From assembly GCA_016870995.1 (NCBI GenBank), contig VFZU01000028.1, positions 1 to 53,340 of the forward strand: a DNA stretch of 53,340 nucleotides, given 5' to 3'. The translations under genes were made by a program, and so were the position numbers. This document shows positions 31,927 to 43,302 of this stretch, in pieces. Each line of letters opens with the position of its first letter. Positions within the stretch are counted from its first letter, which is position 1. Origin of the DNA: Acidobacteriota bacterium. GTDB lineage: Bacteria > Acidobacteriota > Terriglobia > Bryobacterales > Bryobacteraceae. The notes below the pieces were generated by a model. The model did not search any database and was not told the origin of the DNA. It worked only from the letters and a program-made list of their open reading frames with translations.

Positions 31927-33690
31927 TTGAACAAACAATCTCAAATCACTGTGCTCGATGCAGGCGGGCAGTACTGTCATTTGATTGCGCGCCGCGTGCG
32001 CGAAATGGGTGTCTACGCCGATGTGCAGCCGAGCGAAACCGATGGCTATAAGCTCGCCGACCGCAGAGGCATCATCATCTCGGGGGGACCTGCAAGCGTT
32101 TATGAGCCAGGCAGCCCAACGGCAGATCCAGAGATCTTCTCGCTTGGTGTGCCGGTTCTAGGGATCTGCTACGGGATGCAGCTGATGGCTCACCTGATCC
32201 CAGGCGGCAAGGTGACCAAGGGTGTCAAAGGCGAGTACGGTCTGGCGACGCTCAAGGTAACCGCCCAGGATCGGTTGTTTGACAACTTCCAGGCGGTATC
32301 TGAAGTTTGGATGAGCCACCGCGACCGTGTGGGGCAGCCGCCAGAGGATTTTGAGATCACCGCGACGACAGAAGCCTGTCCGGTTGCGGCGATCGCGAAC
32401 GATTGGCGTAATCTGTTTGGCATCCAGTTCCATCCTGAGGTTGTACACACCCAAGGCGGTAAGATCCTGCTCGGAAACTTCCTGTTTGGCATTGCCGGTT
32501 GCACACAGGATTGGGACCCAACACGCCAGATCGAAGACATTGAAGATGAGATTCGCCGAACGGCGCGGGGCCGGAAAGTGTTCTTTTTTGCCTCAGGTGG
32601 AGTGGATTCAACCGTCGCATTCTCGCTGTGTCTAAAGGCGCTCGGTAAAGAGCGCGTGCATGCGGCATATGTGGATACGGGCTTGATGCGCGAAGGAGAA
32701 AGCGAGTTTGTCCGCGAGGTGTTCACGCGGATGGCGGGCGATTCCTTTGAAGTGGTGGATGCACGCGCCGAGTTCTTATCGAAGCTGGCTGGCGTCGTGG
32801 AGCCCGAGGCGAAGCGCAAGATCATCGGCGAAGAGTTTGTTGCCGTGCAACAGCGTGTCCTCGAAAGCGGGCATTTCCTCGATAGCGCCTGGATTCTTGG
32901 CCAGGGCACGATTTACCCAGACACCATCGAGAGCGGTGGAACGGCCAAGGCTGAGGTGATCAAGACGCATCACAACCGTGTAGCCGGCATCCAGAAGCTG
33001 ATTGAAGAAGGTCGCCTGGTGGAGCCGCTGGCGCAGCTCTATAAGGATGAAGTGCGGCAGGTGGGCAGAACCATCGGCTTGCCGGATGAACTGCTCGACC
33101 GGCACCCGTTCCCCGGGCCAGGTCTCGCGATCCGCTGCCTCTGCACGAACAAAGCCGAGGCTGCCATCAAAGTAGATGGTGAAGTAGTTCTCCCGGTGCT
33201 GAGCGTTGGCGTACAAGGCGATTCGCGCACCTATCGTTTGACGCTGGCCCTCGACCAATACAGCGAAGCAGCATTCGCCACCGCAACCGAATCGATCAAC
33301 CTGAACCAAGAAGTAAACCGGGTGGTCGCATTGGTTGCTGGCAAGCTCCCTCTAAGCGAGTTCCGCTCAACGGTTTCAGCGATCGACCAGGTTCGGCTAG
33401 AGAGATTGCGGCGCTGCGATGCGATTGTGCGGCGACTGAGCACCGACAGTGGCTTCGAGGAAAAAATCTGGCAGTTCCCGGTAGTGCTTTTGCCCTGCGG
33501 TGGCGAGGGGATTCCAGACAGCGTTGTGTTGCGGCCGATCGATAGCGTCGACGGCATGACGGCTAAGGCCGTGCCGATGCCGGAAGTGCTGCTGCGACAG
33601 ATGACAGAAGAGCTGCTGGCCGTGCCTGGCATCGCCGCAGTCTTCTTCGATCTGACGAACAAACCACCAGCGACGATTGAGTGGGAATAG
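31927..33690 (+). CDS. guaA: GMP synthase (glutamine-hydrolysing)
   Basis: GuaA converts XMP to GMP with glutamine. The 587-residue product starts at TTG 31927 with no good ribosome binding site in view. The class I amidotransferase domain shows catalytic C81 in GICYGMQL and HPEV near 174; the ATP-pyrophosphatase domain shows the PP-loop SGGVDS near 219, and the dimerisation domain contains RHPFPGPGLAIRCLC. It is about 60-70 residues longer than most bacterial GuaA (about 520), with extra sequence after the PP-loop domain (ALDQYSEAAFATATESINLNQ region), resembling the longer type seen in eukaryotes and some bacteria. All catalytic residues are intact. Confidence 0.95.
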   Translation: MNKQSQITVLDAGGQYCHLIARRVREMGVYADVQPSETDGYKLADRRGIIISGGPASVYEPGSPTADPEIFSLGVPVLGICYGMQLMAHLIPGGKVTKGVKGEYGLATLKVTAQDRLFDNFQAVSEVWMSHRDRVGQPPEDFEITATTEACPVAAIANDWRNLFGIQFHPEVVHTQGGKILLGNFLFGIAGCTQDWDPTRQIEDIEDEIRRTARGRKVFFFASGGVDSTVAFSLCLKALGKERVHAAYVDTGLMREGESEFVREVFTRMAGDSFEVVDARAEFLSKLAGVVEPEAKRKIIGEEFVAVQQRVLESGHFLDSAWILGQGTIYPDTIESGGTAKAEVIKTHHNRVAGIQKLIEEGRLVEPLAQLYKDEVRQVGRTIGLPDELLDRHPFPGPGLAIRCLCTNKAEAAIKVDGEVVLPVLSVGVQGDSRTYRLTLALDQYSEAAFATATESINLNQEVNRVVALVAGKLPLSEFRSTVSAIDQVRLERLRRCDAIVRRLSTDSGFEEKIWQFPVVLLPCGGEGIPDSVVLRPIDSVDGMTAKAVPMPEVLLRQMTEELLAVPGIAAVFFDLTNKPPATIEWE

Positions 33691-33697
33691 AACCCGC

Positions 33698-34123
33698 TCA
33701 GACCTCAATTATTGTGACGCCAGCGTCGGCCCAGCCCTTGATTTTTTGATCGAAGGTGGCGAGCGTCCCGCCGTTGCGGAGCGCCAGTTCAATCAAGATG
33801 GCGTCCGTGACTTGTCCGGCCCCGACGATTCGGTCCCGAACTGCAGGGCGTATTTCGGCTGGCGTAAAGTTCATTTGCCAAAAGAAATGCAATGCACTGG
33901 CTGTCGTACGAGTGAGTGCTTCGATCGCGTCACTAAACAGCAGCGGTATCTTCACCACAGCGGGTTGCATCGAGAGACGAAGGAATCCGAGTTGCGTGAT
34001 CGGACAAGTGGCCCAGCCGTCGCGAGCTCGGTTCGCAAACCAATGATGAGCTGCCTGATGATGAACGTGGGTTGGCACAAATAGGGCGAGCAGAACATTA
34101 ACATCGAGAAGATGAGCGGCCAT
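33698..34123 (-). CDS. vapC: VapC-like PIN-domain toxin
   Basis: The 141-residue product is a PIN domain with LLDVNVLLALF (Asp7 as first metal ligand), an acidic position in VTDAILIELAL near 108 and FDQKI near the end. PIN toxins cleave RNA, often tRNA or rRNA, when the antitoxin is degraded. The second usual acidic residue around residues 40-45 is not obvious (ATCPITQLGFLRL has none), as in several TTHA-like PIN subgroups that begin HLLDVNVLLAL. The gene starts three bases after the antitoxin gene stop, a typical toxin-antitoxin pair. Confidence 0.88.
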   Translation of the reverse strand: MAAHLLDVNVLLALFVPTHVHHQAAHHWFANRARDGWATCPITQLGFLRLSMQPAVVKIPLLFSDAIEALTRTTASALHFFWQMNFTPAEIRPAVRDRIVGAGQVTDAILIELALRNGGTLATFDQKIKGWADAGVTIIEV

Positions 34124-34126
34124 GAG

Positions 34127-34390
34127 TTACCGGACTGGGGAGATGAATTGGGAGGCCAGCTGAAGATCTTCCGTTTCGAGAGCCTTGGCGACATCGTCGG
34201 GGCCGAAGACAGGGGAGCCCGCAGGGAGTTGAAATACAGCAATTCCGTTGCGGTCGCGAGTTGGGGTTCGAGAGGCAAATCCACGGCGAGCCAATTCAGA
34301 AAGAGCGGCTCCGACCGAGATTCCACGAGCAGAAGCTAGCGACTTTGCGACCGCCAGAACTTCAGATTCGATGTCCAGCGTAGTTCTCAT
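34127..34390 (-). CDS. vapB: VapB-like antitoxin
   Basis: The 87-residue product begins with a ribbon-helix-helix region (MRTTLDIESEVLAVAKSLASARGISVGAALSELARRG, residues 1-37), the DNA-binding part that also autoregulates the operon. The C-terminal half, with NGIAVFQLPAGSPVFGPDDVAKALE, would wrap around the PIN toxin. The promoter signals lie so close to the ATG that the transcript would have almost no leader. It directly precedes vapC on the same strand. Confidence 0.85.
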   Translation of the reverse strand: MRTTLDIESEVLAVAKSLASARGISVGAALSELARRGFASRTPTRDRNGIAVFQLPAGSPVFGPDDVAKALETEDLQLASQFISPVR

Positions 34391-34429
34391 TATAATGTTT
34401 ATGATGTTCTAGGGCGATTTTGATGTCAA
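34388..34429 (-). promoter_or_regulatory. Promoter and probable operator of vapBC
   Basis: On the minus strand TTGACA (34424-34429) and CATCAT (34401-34406) are 17 bases apart. A perfect 10-base palindrome CATTATAATG at 34388-34397 covers the expected transcription start and the vapB start codon, a good position for RHH antitoxin binding. The predicted start of transcription is within about five bases of the ATG, so the message may be leaderless. Confidence 0.5.
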
Positions 34430-34441
34430 GCACATTTTTGA

Positions 34442-34496
34442 TTGACAACCGACTGGTTGGACGGTAATTTGAGAATATACCGACTGGTTGGTCGGT
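34442..34496 (+). promoter_or_regulatory. Promoter with two copies of a TetR operator
   Basis: TTGACA (34442-34447) and TAATTT (34465-34470) are 17 bases apart. Between them, from 34448 to 34465, lies ACCGACTGGTTGGACGGT, and just downstream of the -10, from 34479 to 34496, lies ACCGACTGGTTGGTCGGT. The copies match at 17 of 18 bases, are imperfect inverted repeats, and start 31 bases apart, close to three turns of DNA. Binding at both would block polymerase. The tetR gene starts seven bases after the second copy. Confidence 0.8.
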
Positions 34497-34502
34497 TTTC
34501 TT

Positions 34503-35048
34503 ATGGCGAAAAAGGCTGATCTGACACATGAATCGATCCTGGTGGCTGCCCAGGAAGTTTTGCGGACCCAAGGGGTGAGGGCGTTTACGCTCGACAAAGT
34601 AGCCAAGCAGGCGGGCGTGAGCAAGGGTGGGCTGATCCATCACTTTCCCTCAAAGGAAGCGCTGCTCGGCGCAATGCATGACCATGCGTTCCAGTTGATT
34701 GACCTCCAGATGCAGCGAATTCTCTCGGAAGAACCAGAGGCCCCCGGGCGGTATCTGCGCGCGTATCTGAAGTGCAACCTCGAGTCAATCTCGAACGGAA
34801 TTCCCAGCGTTTTCCAGATCGTGGCGGAGATGTCGCTGGCCGAGCCGGAATTGTTCCGGACCAAGCGCGAGTGCATCCGCGGAATGATGGCGATGGTGGA
34901 AGGCGACGGCGTCGACCCTGTCATGGGACACATCATCGCGGCTGCATCGGACAGCATCTGGCTGCAGGTGCTGTTTGGACTGACCGAACCCGACGACCCG
35001 CACATCCACCGTGTGCACGACCGCCTGATGGCGATGACGCGCGAATAG
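34503..35048 (+). CDS. TetR-family repressor of the efflux operon
   Basis: From ATG 34503 the product has 181 residues; an earlier in-frame start at 34488 would lie inside the second operator. The N-terminal helix-turn-helix is HESILVAAQEVLRTQGVRAFTLDKVAKQAGVSKGGLIHHFPSKEALL (about 8-54). The C-terminal part resembles TetR_C domains that bind small hydrophobic ligands, with a run LVDMQMQRIL then YLRAYLKCN. There is no Shine-Dalgarno sequence right before the ATG. It probably represses its own gene and the following tolC-adaptor-RND genes, which are 12 bases downstream and closely packed. Confidence 0.92.
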   Translation: MAKKADLTHESILVAAQEVLRTQGVRAFTLDKVAKQAGVSKGGLIHHFPSKEALLGAMHDHAFQLIDLQMQRILSEEPEAPGRYLRAYLKCNLESISNGIPSVFQIVAEMSLAEPELFRTKRECIRGMMAMVEGDGVDPVMGHIIAAASDSIWLQVLFGLTEPDDPHIHRVHDRLMAMTRE

Positions 35049-35060
35049 GAGATTTAGGTG

Positions 35061-36581
35061 ATGCTGAGTAAGTTCATATTGCTAGCCGCGATTCCAGCTC
35101 TACATGCGGAAACCGTAATGACCCTCCGCGAGGCTGTGCAGCGGGCAATTGCAAATAACCCAGAAGTCGTCGCCGAGAAGGCGAGCTTCGACGCCGCGAA
35201 ACCCGCACTGCGAGCGGCGCAAGGTGCGTTTGATCCGGTGCTGGGGCTCCGTGGCGAGTGGCGGCAGGCCACCACTCCAGCCACTAGCATCCTGCAAGGC
35301 GTGAATGGACGGCTGGATGAACGAAGTTGGACCCAGGCGCTGACGACTCGGCAGCGCTTGCCCTGGATGGGCATGCAATTGGACTCGGCGCTCGAGAACA
35401 CGCGGCTTGCAACCAGCAACCCGTTCACATCGCTGAACCCTTACTACCAGCTAAATCAAAGGACCTCGATCACGATTCCTTTGTTGCGAGGCCGCAAAAC
35501 GGACGAGTTCCGAGCGGAGCTGAAGGTGAGGCGCAAGGAGTTGAAGACGCTGCGGCACGACTTTGACGCTCGCTTGCTGAATCTGGTGTTCCGAGTGGAA
35601 ACAGCGTACTGGAGCTTCGTAGCAGCAAGTGAAGCGTATGAGGCAGCGCGGGATGTTGAGCGATTTGCCAGCGAGAGTCTCGACTCAACGGCGCGCCAGG
35701 TAAAAGAAGGTGAAATGGCAGAGACCGATCTGGCGGGCGCCCGTGGGCAATTGAGCCGCGCACGAGAGAATCGCGCCAACGCTTTTGGCGGTTATCTCGA
35801 GGCGCAAGTGGAGTTGAAAGGATTGATCGCCGGGTCGCCCGCGGATGCGATCTGGAGTGAAAATCTGCGGCCGGGTGAGTCGAGATCTGAGTTGAGCTGG
35901 AAGCGTGAGGAACTGAAGACGATGGCGATCGAAAAGCATCCTGAGTTGCTCGGCTTAGCGATGCGGCTTGAGGCTCAGAAGGACATGACGGCGGTTGCGG
36001 CCGAGGGGGCAAAGCCGCAAGTGGACCTCAGCTTCACGCATCTACAGCAAGGGCTGGCGGGCAACAGCGTCCCACAGGGACAGTTTTTTCCGGGTATCAA
36101 TCTGGATGCACCGCCGCAACTCATCGGAGGATTTCCGCGCGCGGCCAATCAGGCCTTGCGCAACCGCTACCCAACCTATCAGGCCACATTGAACATCGAA
36201 TTGCCGATCCGCAATCGAACCGCCGAGGGCCGGCTGGCACAACAGAAACTGCTTGAGACGAGGATTGCGGCCCAACGGCGGCAGGCGGAGATTGCGCTGG
36301 CCGCAGGCGTGGAGCAAGGCTGGGCGCGGCTTGAGTCGGCGCGGCTGCGCATCGAGGATGCGGCAGCAGCAAGGACCGCGAGCTCCGACCGGCTTCAGAG
36401 CGAGTTCCGTTTGTTTCGTGAGGGGCAGTCGAACAATCTGAGTTTGAATACGCGGCAGAACGAATTGGCCGAGAGTCGGCAGTTACTGGTAAATGCCTGG
36501 CGCAGCTTCAATCTTGCGGCAGCAGAGTTGCGGCGGTTGAGTGGTCAGAGTCTCGAAGTGTTTCAAGTGAGCGTGGAGTAA
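35061..36581 (+). CDS. TolC-family outer-membrane efflux protein
   Basis: TolC-type proteins form the outer-membrane duct of tripartite efflux pumps. From ATG 35061, with AGGAG nine bases upstream, the product has 506 residues and a signal peptide (LSKFILLAAIPALHAE). It shows two OEP repeats: the first with LREAVQRAIANNPEVVAEKASF and the long helices FRVETAYWSFVAASEAYEAARDVERFASES; the second with MAIEKHPELLGLAMRLEAQKDMTAVAAEGAKPQVDLSF and LAAGVEQGWARLESARLRIEDA. The length is somewhat above the usual 450-490. Placed directly before the adaptor and pump genes, it completes one pump. Confidence 0.92.
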   Translation: MLSKFILLAAIPALHAETVMTLREAVQRAIANNPEVVAEKASFDAAKPALRAAQGAFDPVLGLRGEWRQATTPATSILQGVNGRLDERSWTQALTTRQRLPWMGMQLDSALENTRLATSNPFTSLNPYYQLNQRTSITIPLLRGRKTDEFRAELKVRRKELKTLRHDFDARLLNLVFRVETAYWSFVAASEAYEAARDVERFASESLDSTARQVKEGEMAETDLAGARGQLSRARENRANAFGGYLEAQVELKGLIAGSPADAIWSENLRPGESRSELSWKREELKTMAIEKHPELLGLAMRLEAQKDMTAVAAEGAKPQVDLSFTHLQQGLAGNSVPQGQFFPGINLDAPPQLIGGFPRAANQALRNRYPTYQATLNIELPIRNRTAEGRLAQQKLLETRIAAQRRQAEIALAAGVEQGWARLESARLRIEDAAAARTASSDRLQSEFRLFREGQSNNLSLNTRQNELAESRQLLVNAWRSFNLAAAELRRLSGQSLEVFQVSVE

Positions 36582-36584
36582 ATC

Positions 36585-37841
36585 ATGAAGTGGATTGCAC
36601 TAGTTTCGATATTGATGGTTGGCTGCGGTGGCGAAGTTGCCACCCGCAAGACAGATGTGGCGGCGGCAGCACCTGTGGCCGTGAAAACCGCAAAGGGACG
36701 AGCGATCGAGGCGCCAATCGAGTTGTCGCTCACGGGGACGTTTGCCGCTGAGTCCAGCGCAACACTAGCCTCGGAGGTTGAGGGCATTGTAGCGGTCACG
36801 CCAGTTCGAATTGGCAACGCCGTGTCGCAAGGCGCGGCGGTCGTGGTGTTGAACCAGCAATCGGCGCAACTGCGGTTACAAGAAGCTCTCGCTCGCGAAA
36901 AGGAAGCAACAGCGAACCTGAAGCAAGCCGAGGCGAGGCTCGGAGCTGGATTGACCACCCGGCTTGAGAATGTCCCGGAGGTGTTGTCGGCCAAGGCGAC
37001 GCTCGATTCGGCGCAGGCCGAGCAAAGATTACTTGAGATCGAAGAACGGCGAGCAGCGAACCTTCTCAAAGGGGGCGACGTTTCCCGCGCTTCTTACGAC
37101 AGAGCCAAGGCGAACCTCGCTATGGCCGAGGCGCGAGTGGCCGGGGCTACTAAACAATACGATGCGGCGCTCAATCAGGCACGCCAATCCAGCGGAAGCT
37201 TGGATGGCGCGCGGGCAGCGCTCGAGAGCGCGCGAGCGCAAACAGGGCTGGCTCGCAAGGCCTTGGCGGATACGACAATTCGTGCACCATTTGCCGGCTA
37301 CGTCAGTGCGCGAATGGTGGCCGCCGGTGAGTTCGTCAACAATCAAAGCAAGCTGGTTACGATCGACCGGATTCAGCCACTCAAGCTTGAGATACAAGTG
37401 CCGGAATCGGAGGCTTCGCGGATCAAGCCCGGATTGAAGGTGAGAGCTCGCGTCCAGGCCTTTGGCGAAGAGTGGTTTGAAGGCGTCGTAGCGAATGTAA
37501 ATATGGCGGTCAATCCAAACTCGCGAAGCTTTCTTGTGGAGGCGCGATTCGAAAACGCGAAGCTGCTTCTAAAGCCGGGGATGTTCGCCGAAGTGATGGT
37601 CGACCTGGGTCGCAGCGAGAGTCGTGTTGTCGTGCCCGCGACTGGGCTCGATCTCGATAGCCGTACAGATTCCAACCGCGTCTGGACGATCGAAAAGGGA
37701 GTGGCTCGACTGAAGCTGGTCGAGCTGGCGGGAAGGTCCTCTACGGAAGTCCAGGTGCGGCGCGGTCTTGATGCCGATGCGGTGGTGATTGTGTCAGACC
37801 GAGCGAAGTTGTTCGACGGTGCCGCCGTCGAAGTGAGGTAA
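36585..37841 (+). CDS. RND efflux periplasmic adaptor, lipoprotein
   Basis: The 418-residue product starts at ATG 36585 and has a lipoprotein signal (MKWIALVSILMVGCGG) with Cys14 as the lipid anchor. It has the order of an HlyD/AcrA adaptor: a biotinyl-lipoyl-like beta domain (SATLASEVEGIVAVTPVRIGNAVSQGAAVVVLN), a coiled-coil hairpin (about 90-220, LRLQEALAREKEATANLKQAEARLG to SLDGARAALESARAQTGLARKALADT), the returning lipoyl part (TIRAPFAGYVSARMVAAGEFVNN), a beta-barrel and a membrane-proximal domain. It links the RND pump and the TolC duct. Neighbours are one transcript with spacings under eight bases. Confidence 0.93.
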   Translation: MKWIALVSILMVGCGGEVATRKTDVAAAAPVAVKTAKGRAIEAPIELSLTGTFAAESSATLASEVEGIVAVTPVRIGNAVSQGAAVVVLNQQSAQLRLQEALAREKEATANLKQAEARLGAGLTTRLENVPEVLSAKATLDSAQAEQRLLEIEERRAANLLKGGDVSRASYDRAKANLAMAEARVAGATKQYDAALNQARQSSGSLDGARAALESARAQTGLARKALADTTIRAPFAGYVSARMVAAGEFVNNQSKLVTIDRIQPLKLEIQVPESEASRIKPGLKVRARVQAFGEEWFEGVVANVNMAVNPNSRSFLVEARFENAKLLLKPGMFAEVMVDLGRSESRVVVPATGLDLDSRTDSNRVWTIEKGVARLKLVELAGRSSTEVQVRRGLDADAVVIVSDRAKLFDGAAVEVR

Positions 37842-37847
37842 CCCGTT

Positions 37848-40800
37848 ATGCAGAAACTAGCCGAAGTTTGCGTCAAAAGGCCCGTGTTTGCGAGCATGAT
37901 CGTTCTCGCGATGACTGTGGTGGGGGCTTTCTCGTTCGGGCTGCTGGGCGTCGATCGATTCCCGAACGTGGATCTCCCGATCGTGACGGTGGTGACAATG
38001 AATCCGGGAGCATCGCCGGAAGAAATCGAGCGCGAGATTTCGGATCGAATCGAAGGCGCGGTAAACACCGTGTCTGGCATCGAAGACTTGCGCTCCGTAT
38101 CAGCCGAGGGGATCTCGCAGGTGATCATGCAGTTTGAACTCGGCAAGAACGTCGACACCGCCGCGGCTGAAGTCCGCCAGAAGGTGGATCTGATTCTGAA
38201 CGAACTGCCCAAGACGGCTGAGAAACCGCAGGTGCAGAAGCTGAACAGCGATTCGGCCGATGTGTTGCTTTATGCGGTACGTTCACTGCGGGGCTTGGTG
38301 CAAATTACAGAATTCGCCGACAAGGAAATCGTGGATCGCATTGAAAGCGTGTCGGGCGTCGGTTCGGTGCGGATCTTTGGCGGCAGCAAGCGCGAGATCG
38401 AAGTGCGCCTCGATACGAATCGGTTGCGAGCCTACTCGCTCACGGTGGCCGAGTTGACGAATGCTCTGCGCGCCCAGAATCTGGAATTGCCAGGCGGTGC
38501 TCTCGATCAAGGCGGACAGCGCCTCACACTGCGGACCCTTGGCAAAACTGCTGACCTGAAGTCGCTGGCTGGAATCGTAGTGGCAACTCGGGACGGCTAT
38601 CCCGTCAAGCTGAGTGATGTGGCGGCCGTGCTCGATGGAGGTAAGCAGCCGACCTCGGTGGCGAGGCAGAATGGCGAGAGCGCGATTGTGATCGGCATTC
38701 AGAAGCAATCGGGCGTGAACACAGTTGCAACGATCGATGCCGTAAAGGAAAGGATCGCGGAGATTTCAGCGACCTTGCCGAAGGATGTAAAGCTGGATCT
38801 GGTTCGGGATCAAAGTGAGTTCATTCGCGCATCGCTGAACAGTATTGAGGAACATCTGATCGTAGGTGGATTCCTGGCGGCGGGCGTAGTGTTTCTGTTC
38901 TTGCGCAACTGGCGCAGCACGGTAATTGCGGCGATCGCGATTCCCACCAGCATTGTGTCGGCGCTCGCGGTCATGAAGATGCTCGGCTACACGCTAAACA
39001 TGATGACGATGCTCGCCTTGACCTTGATGGTGGGCATTGTGATCGACGACGCGATTGTGGTGCTCGAAAACATTTACCGGTTCGTGGAGGAGAAGGGTAT
39101 GCCGCCCTTCGAGGCGGCCATCGAAGGTACGCGTGAGATTGGTTTGGCGGTGATGGCCACCACACTCTCGCTGCTCGCCGTGTTTGTGCCGATCGGATTC
39201 ATGGGCGGCATCGTCGGCCAGTTCATGCAGAGCTTCGGGCTAACCAGCGCGGCTGCGATCGCAGTGAGTCTCATCGTCTCGTTTACGCTTACGCCGACTC
39301 TGGCGGCCCGATGGATCAAGCCGAATCGAGCGGGGCATGCTTCAAAGAACGAGGGCCTCAATGTCTGGCTCGACCGTGTCTACACAGCGATGCTCGAGTG
39401 GTCGATGGCGAACCGGGGCAAAGTGGTGGCGCTGTGTCTAATCGTGATTGTGTCGATTGTGCCGCTGGCAATGATCGCCGGATTTACGTTTATCGCCGAG
39501 GATGACGAGAACGAGTTTGAGGTGTTGGTGCGGATGCCGGAAGGCACTTCGCTCGCCGCCAGCGAATCGGTCATGGAGGATATTGCGCGACGGATTCGCA
39601 ACGAGTTGGTTGGCGTACAATCGACGCTCGCCGTGCCGGGCTTCAATGCGCAAGAGCAAGTAAATTCCGGAACAATCTTCGTTCGTCTGAAGCCGACGAC
39701 CGAGCGCAAGCCGGCGCAGAAAGATTTGATTGCCGCAGCGCGTGAAATGCTCAAGGCTTACCCGAAGGAGATTTACACCTCCGTGCAACCCGTGAATCCG
39801 TTTGCGGGCGGCGAGCGCAATGCGACGATCCAGTTCATCATCGCCGGGCCCGATTTGGGCAAGCTCGACGAGTATTCGGCCAAGCTGCTGGAGCACATAA
39901 AGAAGGACAAAAACATGGCCGACGCGGATCGGAGCCTGTTGCCGGGCAAGCCGGAACTACGGGTGAAAATCGACCGTGCACGAGCCGCAGACCTGGGAGT
40001 GCGCGTCGAGGATATTGCCGCAACCGTCAATACGATGTTCGCCGGAGAGCGCGTTACGACCTTTAATGAAGGCAAGAATCAATACGACATCCGCGTGAGA
40101 GCAGACGCGGAGACTCGCCGGGATCGCGATGCGATTCTGCGCCTGATGGTGCCGGCGGCCAATGGAACTTCGATCGAGCTGCGCAATGTGGCGAGCCTGG
40201 TGGAGGGCACCGGACCCGGTTCTATCGACCGGTTCCAGCGGCAGCGACAGGTAACGCTCTATGCCAACGTAGCGCCCGGCGGCAGCCAGAGCGAGGCGGT
40301 GGAATCGATCCGCAAGTTTGTCGAAACGATGGAGTTTGCCCCCGGCTACAAGCAGGCTGTGTCGGGCGACGTGAAAGAAATGGAGAAGACGGGCTTCTAC
40401 TTCATGATCGCCGTCGGCCTGACGTTCACGTTCATGTACATGGTGCTCGCTGCGCAGTTTGAGAGCTTCATTCACCCGGTAACGATCTTGCTGACCCTGC
40501 CCTTGTCAGTGCCGTTCGCCATGTTAAGCAGCGCCGTGGCTGGGCAGCATCTGAATATCTTCTCGATGTTGGGGATCCTGCTACTGTTCGGCGTGGTGAA
40601 GAAGAACGCAATCCTGCAGATCGATCATATGAATACTCTGCGCGCCAAAGGCGTGGCGCGGCACGAAGCGATCATACTGGCCAATCGCGACCGGTTGCGG
40701 CCGATCCTGATGACCACCATCGCGCTGGTAGCAGGAATGATCCCGCTGGTTCTAGGTACGGGGCCAGGAGCAGAAACAAACCGATCCATCGGTGTTTTGG

Positions 40801-40946
40801 TAGTTGGCGGGCAAAGCTTATGCCTGCTGCTGACATTGCTCGCCGTACCGGTGTTCTATTCGCTGTTCGAAGATGCGAAAGATTGGTTCGTTAGCCGATC
40901 CTTCATGAGACATTCACCAGTTTCAAACACTGAGCCATTACGCTGA
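37848..40946 (+). CDS. RND-family efflux pump (AcrB-type HAE transporter)
   Basis: The 1032-residue product has the AcrB layout: first membrane helix (about 10-32), porter domains PN1-PN2, helices 2-6, the second half with PC1-PC2 and helices 8-12. The proton-relay segment GYTLNMMTMLALTLMVGIVIDDAIVVLENIYR (helix 4) carries the two Asp (D-D in IDDAI). The second large loop starts near EDDENEFEVLVRMPEGTSLAASE, and the end of helix 10-12 has LLFGVVKKNAILQIDHM. Such pumps export toxic organic compounds. It is the third gene of a TetR-controlled operon. Confidence 0.95.
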   Translation: MQKLAEVCVKRPVFASMIVLAMTVVGAFSFGLLGVDRFPNVDLPIVTVVTMNPGASPEEIEREISDRIEGAVNTVSGIEDLRSVSAEGISQVIMQFELGKNVDTAAAEVRQKVDLILNELPKTAEKPQVQKLNSDSADVLLYAVRSLRGLVQITEFADKEIVDRIESVSGVGSVRIFGGSKREIEVRLDTNRLRAYSLTVAELTNALRAQNLELPGGALDQGGQRLTLRTLGKTADLKSLAGIVVATRDGYPVKLSDVAAVLDGGKQPTSVARQNGESAIVIGIQKQSGVNTVATIDAVKERIAEISATLPKDVKLDLVRDQSEFIRASLNSIEEHLIVGGFLAAGVVFLFLRNWRSTVIAAIAIPTSIVSALAVMKMLGYTLNMMTMLALTLMVGIVIDDAIVVLENIYRFVEEKGMPPFEAAIEGTREIGLAVMATTLSLLAVFVPIGFMGGIVGQFMQSFGLTSAAAIAVSLIVSFTLTPTLAARWIKPNRAGHASKNEGLNVWLDRVYTAMLEWSMANRGKVVALCLIVIVSIVPLAMIAGFTFIAEDDENEFEVLVRMPEGTSLAASESVMEDIARRIRNELVGVQSTLAVPGFNAQEQVNSGTIFVRLKPTTERKPAQKDLIAAAREMLKAYPKEIYTSVQPVNPFAGGERNATIQFIIAGPDLGKLDEYSAKLLEHIKKDKNMADADRSLLPGKPELRVKIDRARAADLGVRVEDIAATVNTMFAGERVTTFNEGKNQYDIRVRADAETRRDRDAILRLMVPAANGTSIELRNVASLVEGTGPGSIDRFQRQRQVTLYANVAPGGSQSEAVESIRKFVETMEFAPGYKQAVSGDVKEMEKTGFYFMIAVGLTFTFMYMVLAAQFESFIHPVTILLTLPLSVPFAMLSSAVAGQHLNIFSMLGILLLFGVVKKNAILQIDHMNTLRAKGVARHEAIILANRDRLRPILMTTIALVAGMIPLVLGTGPGAETNRSIGVLVVGGQSLCLLLTLLAVPVFYSLFEDAKDWFVSRSFMRHSPVSNTEPLR

Positions 40947-40953
40947 TGAGTAC

Positions 40954-41460
40954 ATGGCTCGCACCTCCCCGCTTGCTTGCGCCCTCCGAACCTGGCATTG
41001 GAAGGCGGCGCTGTTCAGCGCGTTGATACGCTGTTCGATTTTCTTCTTGGTGAGCATAACGAGTGGCTGGAAAGCCGCCACCGGTGCGGCGCTGGCCGAG
41101 TTTTTGTACCGGATTGCTGCATCGGGATACTACGGCTCGATGACACAGGCGCTGTCGCGCATGAGTCCCGCCTGGAAGGCAAATTTGCTGGCAATAATTG
41201 CCTTACCAATTCTGCAGCACACGATCGAGTTCGGCATTCACTGGATGCAAGGTACGCCCAAGCTGGTAACTTCGATTAGCTTGAGCTACGGGTTTACGAT
41301 CATTTCGACCTTGTTCAATCTCTATTCGATGCGGCGTGGATCGCTGATCGTGGGCACAGGAGCACGATCGATCTGGCAGGATATCGCGGCGTTTCCATTG
41401 CTCGCCTGGGGCTTTGTGACGAGTGGGCCGCGTCTGATATTGCGAACCAACCCCAGATGA
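40954..41460 (+). CDS. Small membrane protein of the efflux operon, unknown
   Basis: The 168-residue product has three or four hydrophobic stretches (about 20-35, 60-75, 85-100, 140-160) with basic loops and a Pro/Arg end. I do not recognise a family. It begins eight bases after the RND pump stop and its stop overlaps the following glycosyltransferase start (ATGA), so it is transcribed with the pump. An accessory role in efflux or in lipid modification is a guess. Confidence 0.7.
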   Translation: MARTSPLACALRTWHWKAALFSALIRCSIFFLVSITSGWKAATGAALAEFLYRIAASGYYGSMTQALSRMSPAWKANLLAIIALPILQHTIEFGIHWMQGTPKLVTSISLSYGFTIISTLFNLYSMRRGSLIVGTGARSIWQDIAAFPLLAWGFVTSGPRLILRTNPR

Positions 41461-42685
41461 AAACGATCCATCTGACGAATGCCTGGCACGCTTCCTCCGG
41501 TGGGATCGCGACACACTACCGTTCTCTCCTCAATGAGGCGGAGAGGACCGGGCAACAACTGGCGATGGTGGTGCCGGGGGCTGAAGACGGAGTGGAGCGT
41601 AAGGGAAGCACGCGGATTCACTCGGTGAAGGCTGTAGTGTCCCCGTTTAACTCGGCCTATCGCAGCATCATGCCGAACGCATGGCCAGGAGTAAGCCGGC
41701 GGGTGGTTGAGATCCTGCTGGAGGATCAACCCGACCTGATCGAGATTTGCGATAAGTACAGCCTGCATTATCTGGCTGGTTTGATTCGCAAAGAGTACCT
41801 GAAAGGGTTTGCGAAGCGGCCTGTTTTGATCGGGCTATCCTGCGAGCGAATGGACGACAATCTGGGCGTTTATCTGACGCGGTCTCCCGTGGGCAAAGCG
41901 TTTGCGCGCTGGTATATGAAGTGGGTGTACTTCGGGTTCTTCGATCACCACATCGTGAACTCAGAGCATGTGGCGATGGAGTTGCGCGAAGCTTCCAGGG
42001 GCCATGTTCGCGAGCGTGGCATCTATGTGCGCCCGCCCGGGAGTCGATCTCTCGATGTTCGACGCCTCAACCCGACAAGCGATTGGGCGGCGAGATGGCC
42101 CCCGCGTAGCTTTGTACGCAGGCCCGGCTGGCACGGGAGAAGAACCTCTCGCTGTTGATGGATATGTTTGCGCTGCTCGGCGAGAATTACCGGTTGGTAT
42201 TGGCGGGGGATGGGATATTGAGAGCCAGTCTTGAGGCAGAAGCCAGGCGGCGATTCCCGGGGCGAGCAAGCTTTCTCGGACATATCCAAAGCAGGGCCGA
42301 GCTGGCGAAGGTCTTTGCGGGTGCCGATGTGTTCGTCCAAACAAATCCGGCGGAACCGTTCGGGATCGCACCGCTTGAAGCAATGGCGAATGGCGTGCCT
42401 CTGGTGGGGCCGAACAGCGGAGGCATCCTGACTTGCGCGACCGAGCGCAACGCATGGCTGGTGCCGCCGGTTGCCAACAAGTTTGCGGCGGCGGTCGAAG
42501 CCTGTTTCGATGAGGAAGAGCGAGCGCGGAGGGTGAGCGAAGGGTTCGCTACCGCGAAGCGATTCCACGCACCAGAGACGGCTGGGCGGTTTCTAGAGAT
42601 GTACCGGGAGTTCGTAATGAACGGTGCAGCGCCGGAGCCGGACTACGTGTCGACTCCGGGCACATGGTTGGGTTCGGAAGTTTAG
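41457..42685 (+). pseudogene. Glycosyltransferase family 4, broken by two frameshifts
   Basis: Three plus frames together spell one GT4-type glycosyltransferase. The first (41457 to about 42041) gives MKTIHLTNAWHASSGGIATHYRSLL up to RERGIYVRPPG; the second gives VDLSMFDASTRQAIGRRDGPRVALYAG; the third (to 42685) gives LVLAGDGILRASLEAEARRRF, VQTNPAEPFGIAPLEAMANGVPLVG and the rest. Removing one G from GGG (42039-42041) and one C from CCC (42123-42125) restores an unbroken frame reading PPGVDLSMF and YAGRLAREKNLSLLMD. The EPFGIAPLEAMA motif is the donor-binding ExxE. As written the product would lack a complete donor domain. Confidence 0.85.
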
Positions 42686-43302
42686 CTGGTGGCTTGAGGC
42701 TTAGGCGGGGGAGGACCTTGGGGCTTGTCCTTAGACTTATCTTTGGCAGGAGGAGTCTGCGCCTTCACCGGGCTCATGATGATATGAGCGTTACGGCCTT
42801 CGAGTTTAGGCTGGCCTTCGACTGCGCCGATGTCCTTCAGGTCTTCGGCGAAGCGCTGCAGGAGTTTCTTGCCAAGGTCGACGTGGGCGATTTCGCGACC
42901 ACGGAACTGGACAACGGCTTTGACGCGATTGCCTTCCTTCAGGAAGCGCATGGCGTTGTTCTTTTTGAACTCGTAGTCGTGATCATCGGTGTTGGGGCGG
43001 AACTTCACTTCCTTCACCTGGATGATGTGCTGCTTCTTCTTGGCGTCGTGAGTTTTCTTTTTTTGCTCGTACTGCCACTGGCCGTAATCCATGGCCTTGG
43101 CGACGGGAGGCTCCGCCGTAGGAGAAACGAGAATCAGGTCGAGGCCCAATTCCTGTGCCCTGCGAATCGCCGTCGGCGTGGGCAAAACTTCAACCACACC
43201 GTCGGGAAATACAGCGCGTACTTCCTTGACACGGATGGCTTCGTTTACGTTTTCTCTGATCTTGGGTAAGCGCCGGAAGGGGGGTCGATTGTTCGGAAAC
43301 AT
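42682..43302 (-). CDS. infC: Translation initiation factor IF-3
   Basis: IF-3 binds the 30S subunit and checks the start codon. The 206-residue product has the N-terminal domain (IRENVNEAIRVKEVRAVF to LVSPTAEPPVAKAMDYGQWQYEQ) and the C-terminal domain (QVKEVKFRPNTDDHDYEFKKNNAMRFLKEGNRVKAVVQFRGREIAHVDLGKKLL), plus a Lys/Pro-rich tail. The N-domain loop reads AVFPDGVVEVLPT where most have IDxDGxQLGV, so it is divergent there. The usual rpmI-rplT genes do not follow, which is unusual for infC. No clear Shine-Dalgarno sequence precedes the ATG. Confidence 0.93.
   Translation of the reverse strand: MFPNNRPPFRRLPKIRENVNEAIRVKEVRAVFPDGVVEVLPTPTAIRRAQELGLDLILVSPTAEPPVAKAMDYGQWQYEQKKKTHDAKKKQHIIQVKEVKFRPNTDDHDYEFKKNNAMRFLKEGNRVKAVVQFRGREIAHVDLGKKLLQRFAEDLKDIGAVEGQPKLEGRNAHIIMSPVKAQTPPAKDKSKDKPQGPPPPKPQATS

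Follow-up and report, generated by a model that had tools for sequence, protein, structure and literature searches.

Two near-identical 18-bp repeats at the promoter of an acidobacterial tetR gene are very probably the operators through which the adjacent TetR-family protein represses its own tetR-tolC-adaptor-RND operon. They lie in a stretch of 53,340 bases analyzed as a whole (the window). This reading, already put forward in the initial annotation, is supported by recurrence of the two-site promoter layout throughout a clade of related TetR proteins, by the finding that within the scanned DNA the unmismatched operator core is confined to tetR promoters, by conservation of the pump genes downstream, and by the precedent of PaaR, whose site has the same core at the same promoter position. 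The repeats, the promoter geometry, the restriction of the unmismatched core and the conserved operon were each obtained directly by computation. The features concerned are as follows.

33698-34123, - strand: vapC (TIGR00028, 109.8 bits against a cut-off of 73.6)
34127-34390, - strand: vapB, named from its place before vapC (no Pfam match)
34442-34447, + strand: -35 hexamer TTGACA of the tetR operon promoter, read in the sequence and conserved as TTGAC[A/G]
34448-34465, + strand: putative operator copy 1 (O1), ACCGACTGGTTGGACGGT, whose 14-bp core (34448-34461) departs from the relaxed core defined below at one position
34465-34470, + strand: -10 hexamer TAATTT, after a 17-bp spacer, at a position conserved in orthologs
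~34477, + strand: predicted transcription start, placed ~7 nt after the -10 hexamer
34479-34496, + strand: putative operator copy 2 (O2), ACCGACTGGTTGGTCGGT, whose 14-bp core (34479-34492) fits the relaxed core at every position
34503-35048, + strand: tetR, TetR/AcrR-family repressor of 181 aa (PF00440, PF17937)
35058-36581, + strand: TolC-like outer-membrane efflux protein (PF02321; ATG 35061 preferred)
36585-37841, + strand: RND periplasmic adaptor (TIGR01730)
37848-40946, + strand: RND inner-membrane pump of the AcrB/AcrD/AcrF family (PF00873)
40954-41460, + strand: 168-aa open reading frame without Pfam or NCBIfam match, 7 nt after the pump gene

The tetR product exceeds the cut-offs of both of its Pfam models (PF00440, 57.9 bits, cut-off 24; PF17937, 49.2 bits, cut-off 26.4) and does not reach those of the NCBIfam models for MtrR (44.4 vs 280 bits) and AcrR (28.9 vs 271 bits). 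Its AlphaFold model, built from a 5-sequence alignment, has nine helices and a mean pLDDT of 83.9; the best PDB match is EbrR (3hta; E 1.8e-5, TM 0.63), the PfmR structure 3vpr ranks 29th, and these weak to moderate fold matches do not fix the ligand. The EbrR structures include ethidium and proflavin, so that cationic dyes would be no more than an initial guess. The repressor gene adjoins outer-membrane, adaptor and RND genes, as in operons of local RND-pump repressors, and the operator-like sites overlap the operon promoter, which is the sequence mark expected of an autoregulated repressor of this kind. The genes of the cluster all run in one direction, 3 to 12 bases apart (with ATG 35061 as the tolC start), and a simple scan finds no promoter-like sites inside 34990-42700. 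The 168-aa reading frame, a 77% identical copy of which follows the pump gene in the same-genus genome G002 (L063:6732-7199), is perhaps the last gene of the operon. Beyond it a glycosyltransferase-like gene (named by eye) is split over overlapping + strand frames at 41457-42158 and 42155-42685, possibly by a frameshift or a sequencing error.

The two 18-mers and the single base by which they differ are read directly in the sequence, as is the distance of 31 bp between their starts. Both are imperfect dyads. When the 110-bp region 34393-34502 is shuffled 2000 times with its dinucleotides preserved, a non-overlapping pair of 18-mers with one mismatch arises once and pairs with up to three mismatches arise in four shuffles in all, and no other pair with at most one mismatch and a start spacing of 18-100 is present in the window. 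In the organism's own genome (5.72 Mb) exact matches to the 18-mers are O1 and O2 only. With up to three mismatches allowed there are 11 places, nine of them besides O1 and O2 (one at one mismatch and eight at three); because the reversed-pattern control likewise gives nine places, no further target is evident, and the 18-mer scan of this genome yields no convincing additional site for the window TetR. The place with one mismatch (C75:3930) was rejected as a further target, as it lies inside the open reading frame of an unrelated gene.

With respect to the promoter, the initial annotation had O1 filling the spacer exactly. Since the conserved -10 hexamer is TAATTT at 34465-34470, O1 does cover the whole 17-bp spacer, and it extends in addition over the first -10 base (34465). 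O2, which had been described as covering the transcription start, instead begins ~2 bp downstream of it; with the start taken as ~34477, O2 would occupy about +3 to +20. A promoter scan did not return this tetR promoter, and its -10 hexamer agrees with the consensus at no more than 3 of 6 positions. ATG 34503 is preferred over TTG 34488 as the tetR start codon because the ortholog proteins align from ATG 34503.

The 3' end of O2 is six bases before this ATG, with only TTTCTT between. The tetR leader thus has no Shine-Dalgarno sequence between O2 and the ATG, O2 occupying its usual place, and the orthologs are alike in this, with short T-rich stretches between the second site and the ATG; tolC, unlike tetR, has AGGAG nine bases before its ATG. 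Placement of O2 where a Shine-Dalgarno sequence would normally stand may keep translation of the repressor low. It is extremely unlikely that O2 acts mainly as RNA, damping translation through a leader hairpin by the start codon or transcription through a terminator-like stem before a T run: a 7-pair stem and T-rich run are predicted at 34479-34496 and the Shine-Dalgarno sequence is absent, but the 64 nt of 34477-34540 are no more stable than shuffled sequences (z -0.45; 60 of 200 shuffles as stable), Rfam gives no match at gathering score in 33000-36000, and terminator-like sites in 34000-35200 number 1, vs 1.1 in shuffles. Moreover an RNA explanation does not reach O1, which carries this motif too but precedes the predicted start.

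Homologs of the repressor were sought by protein only, so that the choice of upstream regions is independent of the operator. At E <=1e-20 matches were found in 10 genomes among 151 relatives, and in overlapping sets 26 of 257 genomes of the order (1e-25) and 19 of 399 of the class (1e-22) have one. Among seven other genomes of the genus, a tetR ortholog is present in G002, G005 (where the locus is cut at the contig end) and G007, only a distant homolog is present in G006, and no TetR match reaches the cut-off in G001, G003 and G004; distribution of the operon in the genus is patchy. Thirty-four upstream regions were compared: 31 from 30 genomes, including that of the window, and three from outside (a Planctomycetota MAG, Salsuginibacillus kocurii and Salibacterium halotolerans). 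Genome G215 (two gene fragments, L037 and L062) and loci L012-L017 (partial or weak matches) were left out; L018, L019, L021, L022 and L024-L027 coincide with other loci that were used, and L020 and L023 were used themselves.

Within 140 bp upstream of tetR, a relaxed 14-bp core, ACC[G/A][A/T]C-NN-G[T/A][C/T]GGT, is present without mismatch in 32 of the 34 homologs and with one mismatch in the other two. In the window the cores are ACCGACTGGTTGGA for O1, in the -35/-10 spacer, and ACCGACTGGTTGGT for O2, after the -10 hexamer. The fit of the core to tetR promoters is partly by construction, since the relaxed core was written after seeing them; its absence elsewhere is not. A scan of 196,692 bases (the window and 18 loci) finds the core without mismatch 26 times, always at a tetR promoter, and O1, being a one-mismatch core, is not among these. 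One-mismatch cores also arise by chance, as at window positions 164, 26861 and 40716 and at some places in the fetched loci. The 23 more distant homologs have a related core as well, as a rule one, in which ACCGTC-NN-GACGGT or mixed half-sites may replace ACCGAC-NN-GTCGGT (L057, L058, L059, L060 and others), and comparison of the sequences indicates that the unit common to the whole family is 14 bp rather than 18 bp. By eye, operator base 5 (A/T) seemed to go with TetR residue 32, which is K/Q in the clade and E/A in those outgroup regions that were compared first; this association was discarded because R or K accompanies ACCGTC or mixed sites in G381, G366, G436, G408 and G063.

Eleven of these regions, that of the window included, belong to TetR proteins forming one branch with 100/99 support (the tree being midpoint-rooted for drawing), and the ten other members are 38-58% identical to the window TetR. 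All 11 have the same layout: TTGAC[A/G], a first site, a -10 hexamer at 17 or 18 bp, a second site, and ATG. The first site follows TTGAC[A/G] after 0-1 bases in every member (for the window's genus the count runs to the 18-mer). In seven the -10 hexamer is at 17 bp (TAATTT, TAATCT twice, TATTCT twice, TACTCT, TATCCT), and in the other four the sequence reads GTA[T/C]C[T/C] at 17 bp, which is TA[T/C]C[T/C]T at 18 bp. Relative to the relaxed core, the second site has no mismatch in any of the 11; the first has none in seven members, one in G000 and G005, two in G212 and three in G232, and because it is degraded in G232 and partly in G212, O1 may matter less. An exact tandem pattern, run against 151 genomes, gives four hits, all at this tetR promoter, and its reversed control gives none; the pattern missed the window's own copy and that in G005 because their letters differ from it. 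In view of these results the repeats have a negligible chance of being an accident or a functionless duplication of simple sequence: one of the 2000 shuffles does contain an equally good pair, but both sites and the promoter geometry recur in every clade member while the linker between the sites diverges.

Spacing between the cores in the 11 members is 31, 35, 35, 30, 31, 32, 32, 30, 30, 30 and 30, that is 30-32 in nine of them and 35 in G002 and G005 (31 if counted by the 18-mer). The argument that a spacing near three helical turns would prove binding of two dimers to the same face was therefore not retained, given the value of 35 by the 14-bp core in these two members, and spacing is not diagnostic of same-face binding because it is also confined by promoter geometry. 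The 20 other regions have one core per promoter (in overlapping registers in two of them). In 11 of these 20 a TTGA[C/T] begins 10-11 bases before the core, which is thereby placed within the spacer and reaches the -10 hexamer, and in nine no -35 of this type is found at that distance. The Planctomycetota region has two cores 22 bp apart, on a long branch of unsure place. These comparisons suggest that the position held in common is the one in the spacer, the second site having been added in the clade.

Conservation downstream is similar. TolC follows tetR in all ten other clade members and adaptor and RND genes follow in nine (two of these RND genes being cut by the contig end), the contig of the tenth, G212, ending within tolC. 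The RND proteins of the same genus are 84-86% identical to that of the window, and those of the other clade members 66-68%. An RND gene was detected in seven of eight more distant loci fetched (27-37% identity; none in that of G381) and in the Planctomycetota locus (28% identity), but in neither of the two Bacillales loci. Because related species keep the same layout, the arrangement of twin sites before a pump operon is real, though of a familiar kind.

On the upstream side lies vapBC, a toxin-antitoxin pair oriented away from tetR. That the two sites serve vapBC as well, or are recognized by a regulator other than the window TetR, is very unlikely. The vapB gene starts at 34390 on the - strand and its weakly predicted promoter has a -35 at 34429, 18 bp from O1, and a -10 ending at 34401; neither O1 nor O2 overlaps these elements, however, and the sites stay with tetR, while the two same-genus upstream regions examined (L019, L021) carry other genes (PhyH, endonuclease). 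The predicted vapB start is almost at its ATG, so that the antitoxin mRNA may be nearly leaderless.

The number of dimers per site is less clearly indicated. In the QacR operator, dimers overlap. By analogy each 18-bp unit could be a 14-bp core with an extra half-site on which dimers overlap, for up to four dimers in the region, a reading that we consider unlikely without being far-fetched. The 18-mers of the window's genus do each contain three half-sites, some with one mismatch (in the window these are ACCGAC, GTTGG[T/A] and G[T/A]CGGT), 9 of the 20 regions outside the clade have a further ACCGAC or ACCAAC 4 bp before the core, and the authors of the PaaR study liken their own site, described as a dual overlapping inverted repeat, to that of QacR (PMC2770484). 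Against this, an exact third half-site is found in none of the seven clade members from other genera, and a one-mismatch version is present in all seven at O1, where the letters are shared with the -35, and in only one of seven at O2. For sites from other genera the 14-bp dyad scores highest, with a mean of 7.39 of 10 pairs vs 5.29 and 3.92 for 2-bp shifts (n=38 sites); in the window's genus three dyad centres are nearly equal (5.88, 5.5 and 5.5; n=8) because each box contains the third half-site, and the 14-bp and 18-bp registers are indistinguishable there. Both window copies are poor dyads, pairing at 5 of 10 at the family's centre. The MtrR consensus, MCRTRCRN4YGYAYGK, is an 18-bp site of 7-N4-7 layout, as which the window 18-mers can likewise be read, and according to the excerpted report it is bound by one MtrR dimer, with one dimer per 21-mer in crystals (PMC8053128). 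Each copy may thus take one dimer (in the 14-bp register or as an 18-bp 7-N4-7 site) or overlapping dimers.

Autorepression by the adjacent TetR comports with several described systems. In Burkholderia cenocepacia the TetR-type regulator PaaR has the core ACCGACCGGTCGGT in the -35/-10 spacer, where according to the excerpted text it is needed for negative control, mutation of the site raising uninduced expression by derepression (PMC2770484); EMSA is reported in a review passage on this precedent (PMC9493321). The PaaR core occurs letter for letter, in the spacer, in G084, G011 and G204, and O1 is likewise a core of this type in the -35/-10 spacer. The likeness concerns the operator. PaaR controls phenylacetate catabolic genes, whereas the window TetR precedes an RND pump, and a single PaaR site is described in that excerpt (PMC2770484), vs two at the window promoter. 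For PfmR/TTHB023 of Thermus thermophilus, another TetR-family protein, the excerpted report gives the consensus TACCGACCGNTNGGTN (PMC7022988), which overlaps the core of the window family while its in vitro consensus differs in part; PfmR is tied there to fatty-acid and phenylacetate genes, unlike the pump operon of the window.

MtrR-mtrCDE and AcrR-acrAB are TetR-family local repressors of RND pumps, as proposed here, though their operator letters differ and the window tetR is co-directional, being the first gene of its operon; an AcrR-AcrAB local repressor, among the matches of the literature search, is the ordinary relative of this arrangement. In Tn10 tet the spacing of tetO1 and tetO2 is similar to that of O1 and O2, while the genes are divergent and the operator letters and pump family are unlike those of the window. 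The two Tn10 operators of one TetR dimer repressor overlap the repressor and efflux promoters, and the excerpted account gives no indication of cooperativity (PMC3037858).

The repressor-operator mechanism itself is textbook. Binding, repression, induction and the share of each copy are what we infer for this system from the comparisons above. Without ligand, a TetR dimer at O1 would occupy the -35/-10 spacer and block RNA polymerase, and one at O2, which covers the beginning of the transcript close ahead of the start codon, would block polymerase binding or clearance as well. A small molecule, presumably a pump substrate, would free TetR, so that tetR, tolC, adaptor and RND genes are turned on together, and since tetR itself is among the genes induced, the response would be self-limiting. 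A more speculative, and quite improbable, extension is that an old single spacer operator has been doubled in the clade by a better-conserved leader copy about three helical turns downstream, at the usual place of a Shine-Dalgarno sequence, and that the two boxes of the window's genus, with three half-sites each, could take as many as four dimers in cooperative binding, giving a steep switch.

A literature search on TetR operators at efflux or RND genes and on acidobacterial examples returned, among the matches listed (titles and abstract starts), none on this system. The sites described here provide a predicted operator, with good support, for a set of RND-pump repressors without a report among those matches. 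Since the distant homologs have ACCGTC or mixed half-sites where others have ACCGAC, they form a natural set of variants from which the residues reading base 5 might be identified. The second operator, specific to the clade, is of modest interest, and the 14-bp core together with the two-site layout could help to predict targets across relatives.
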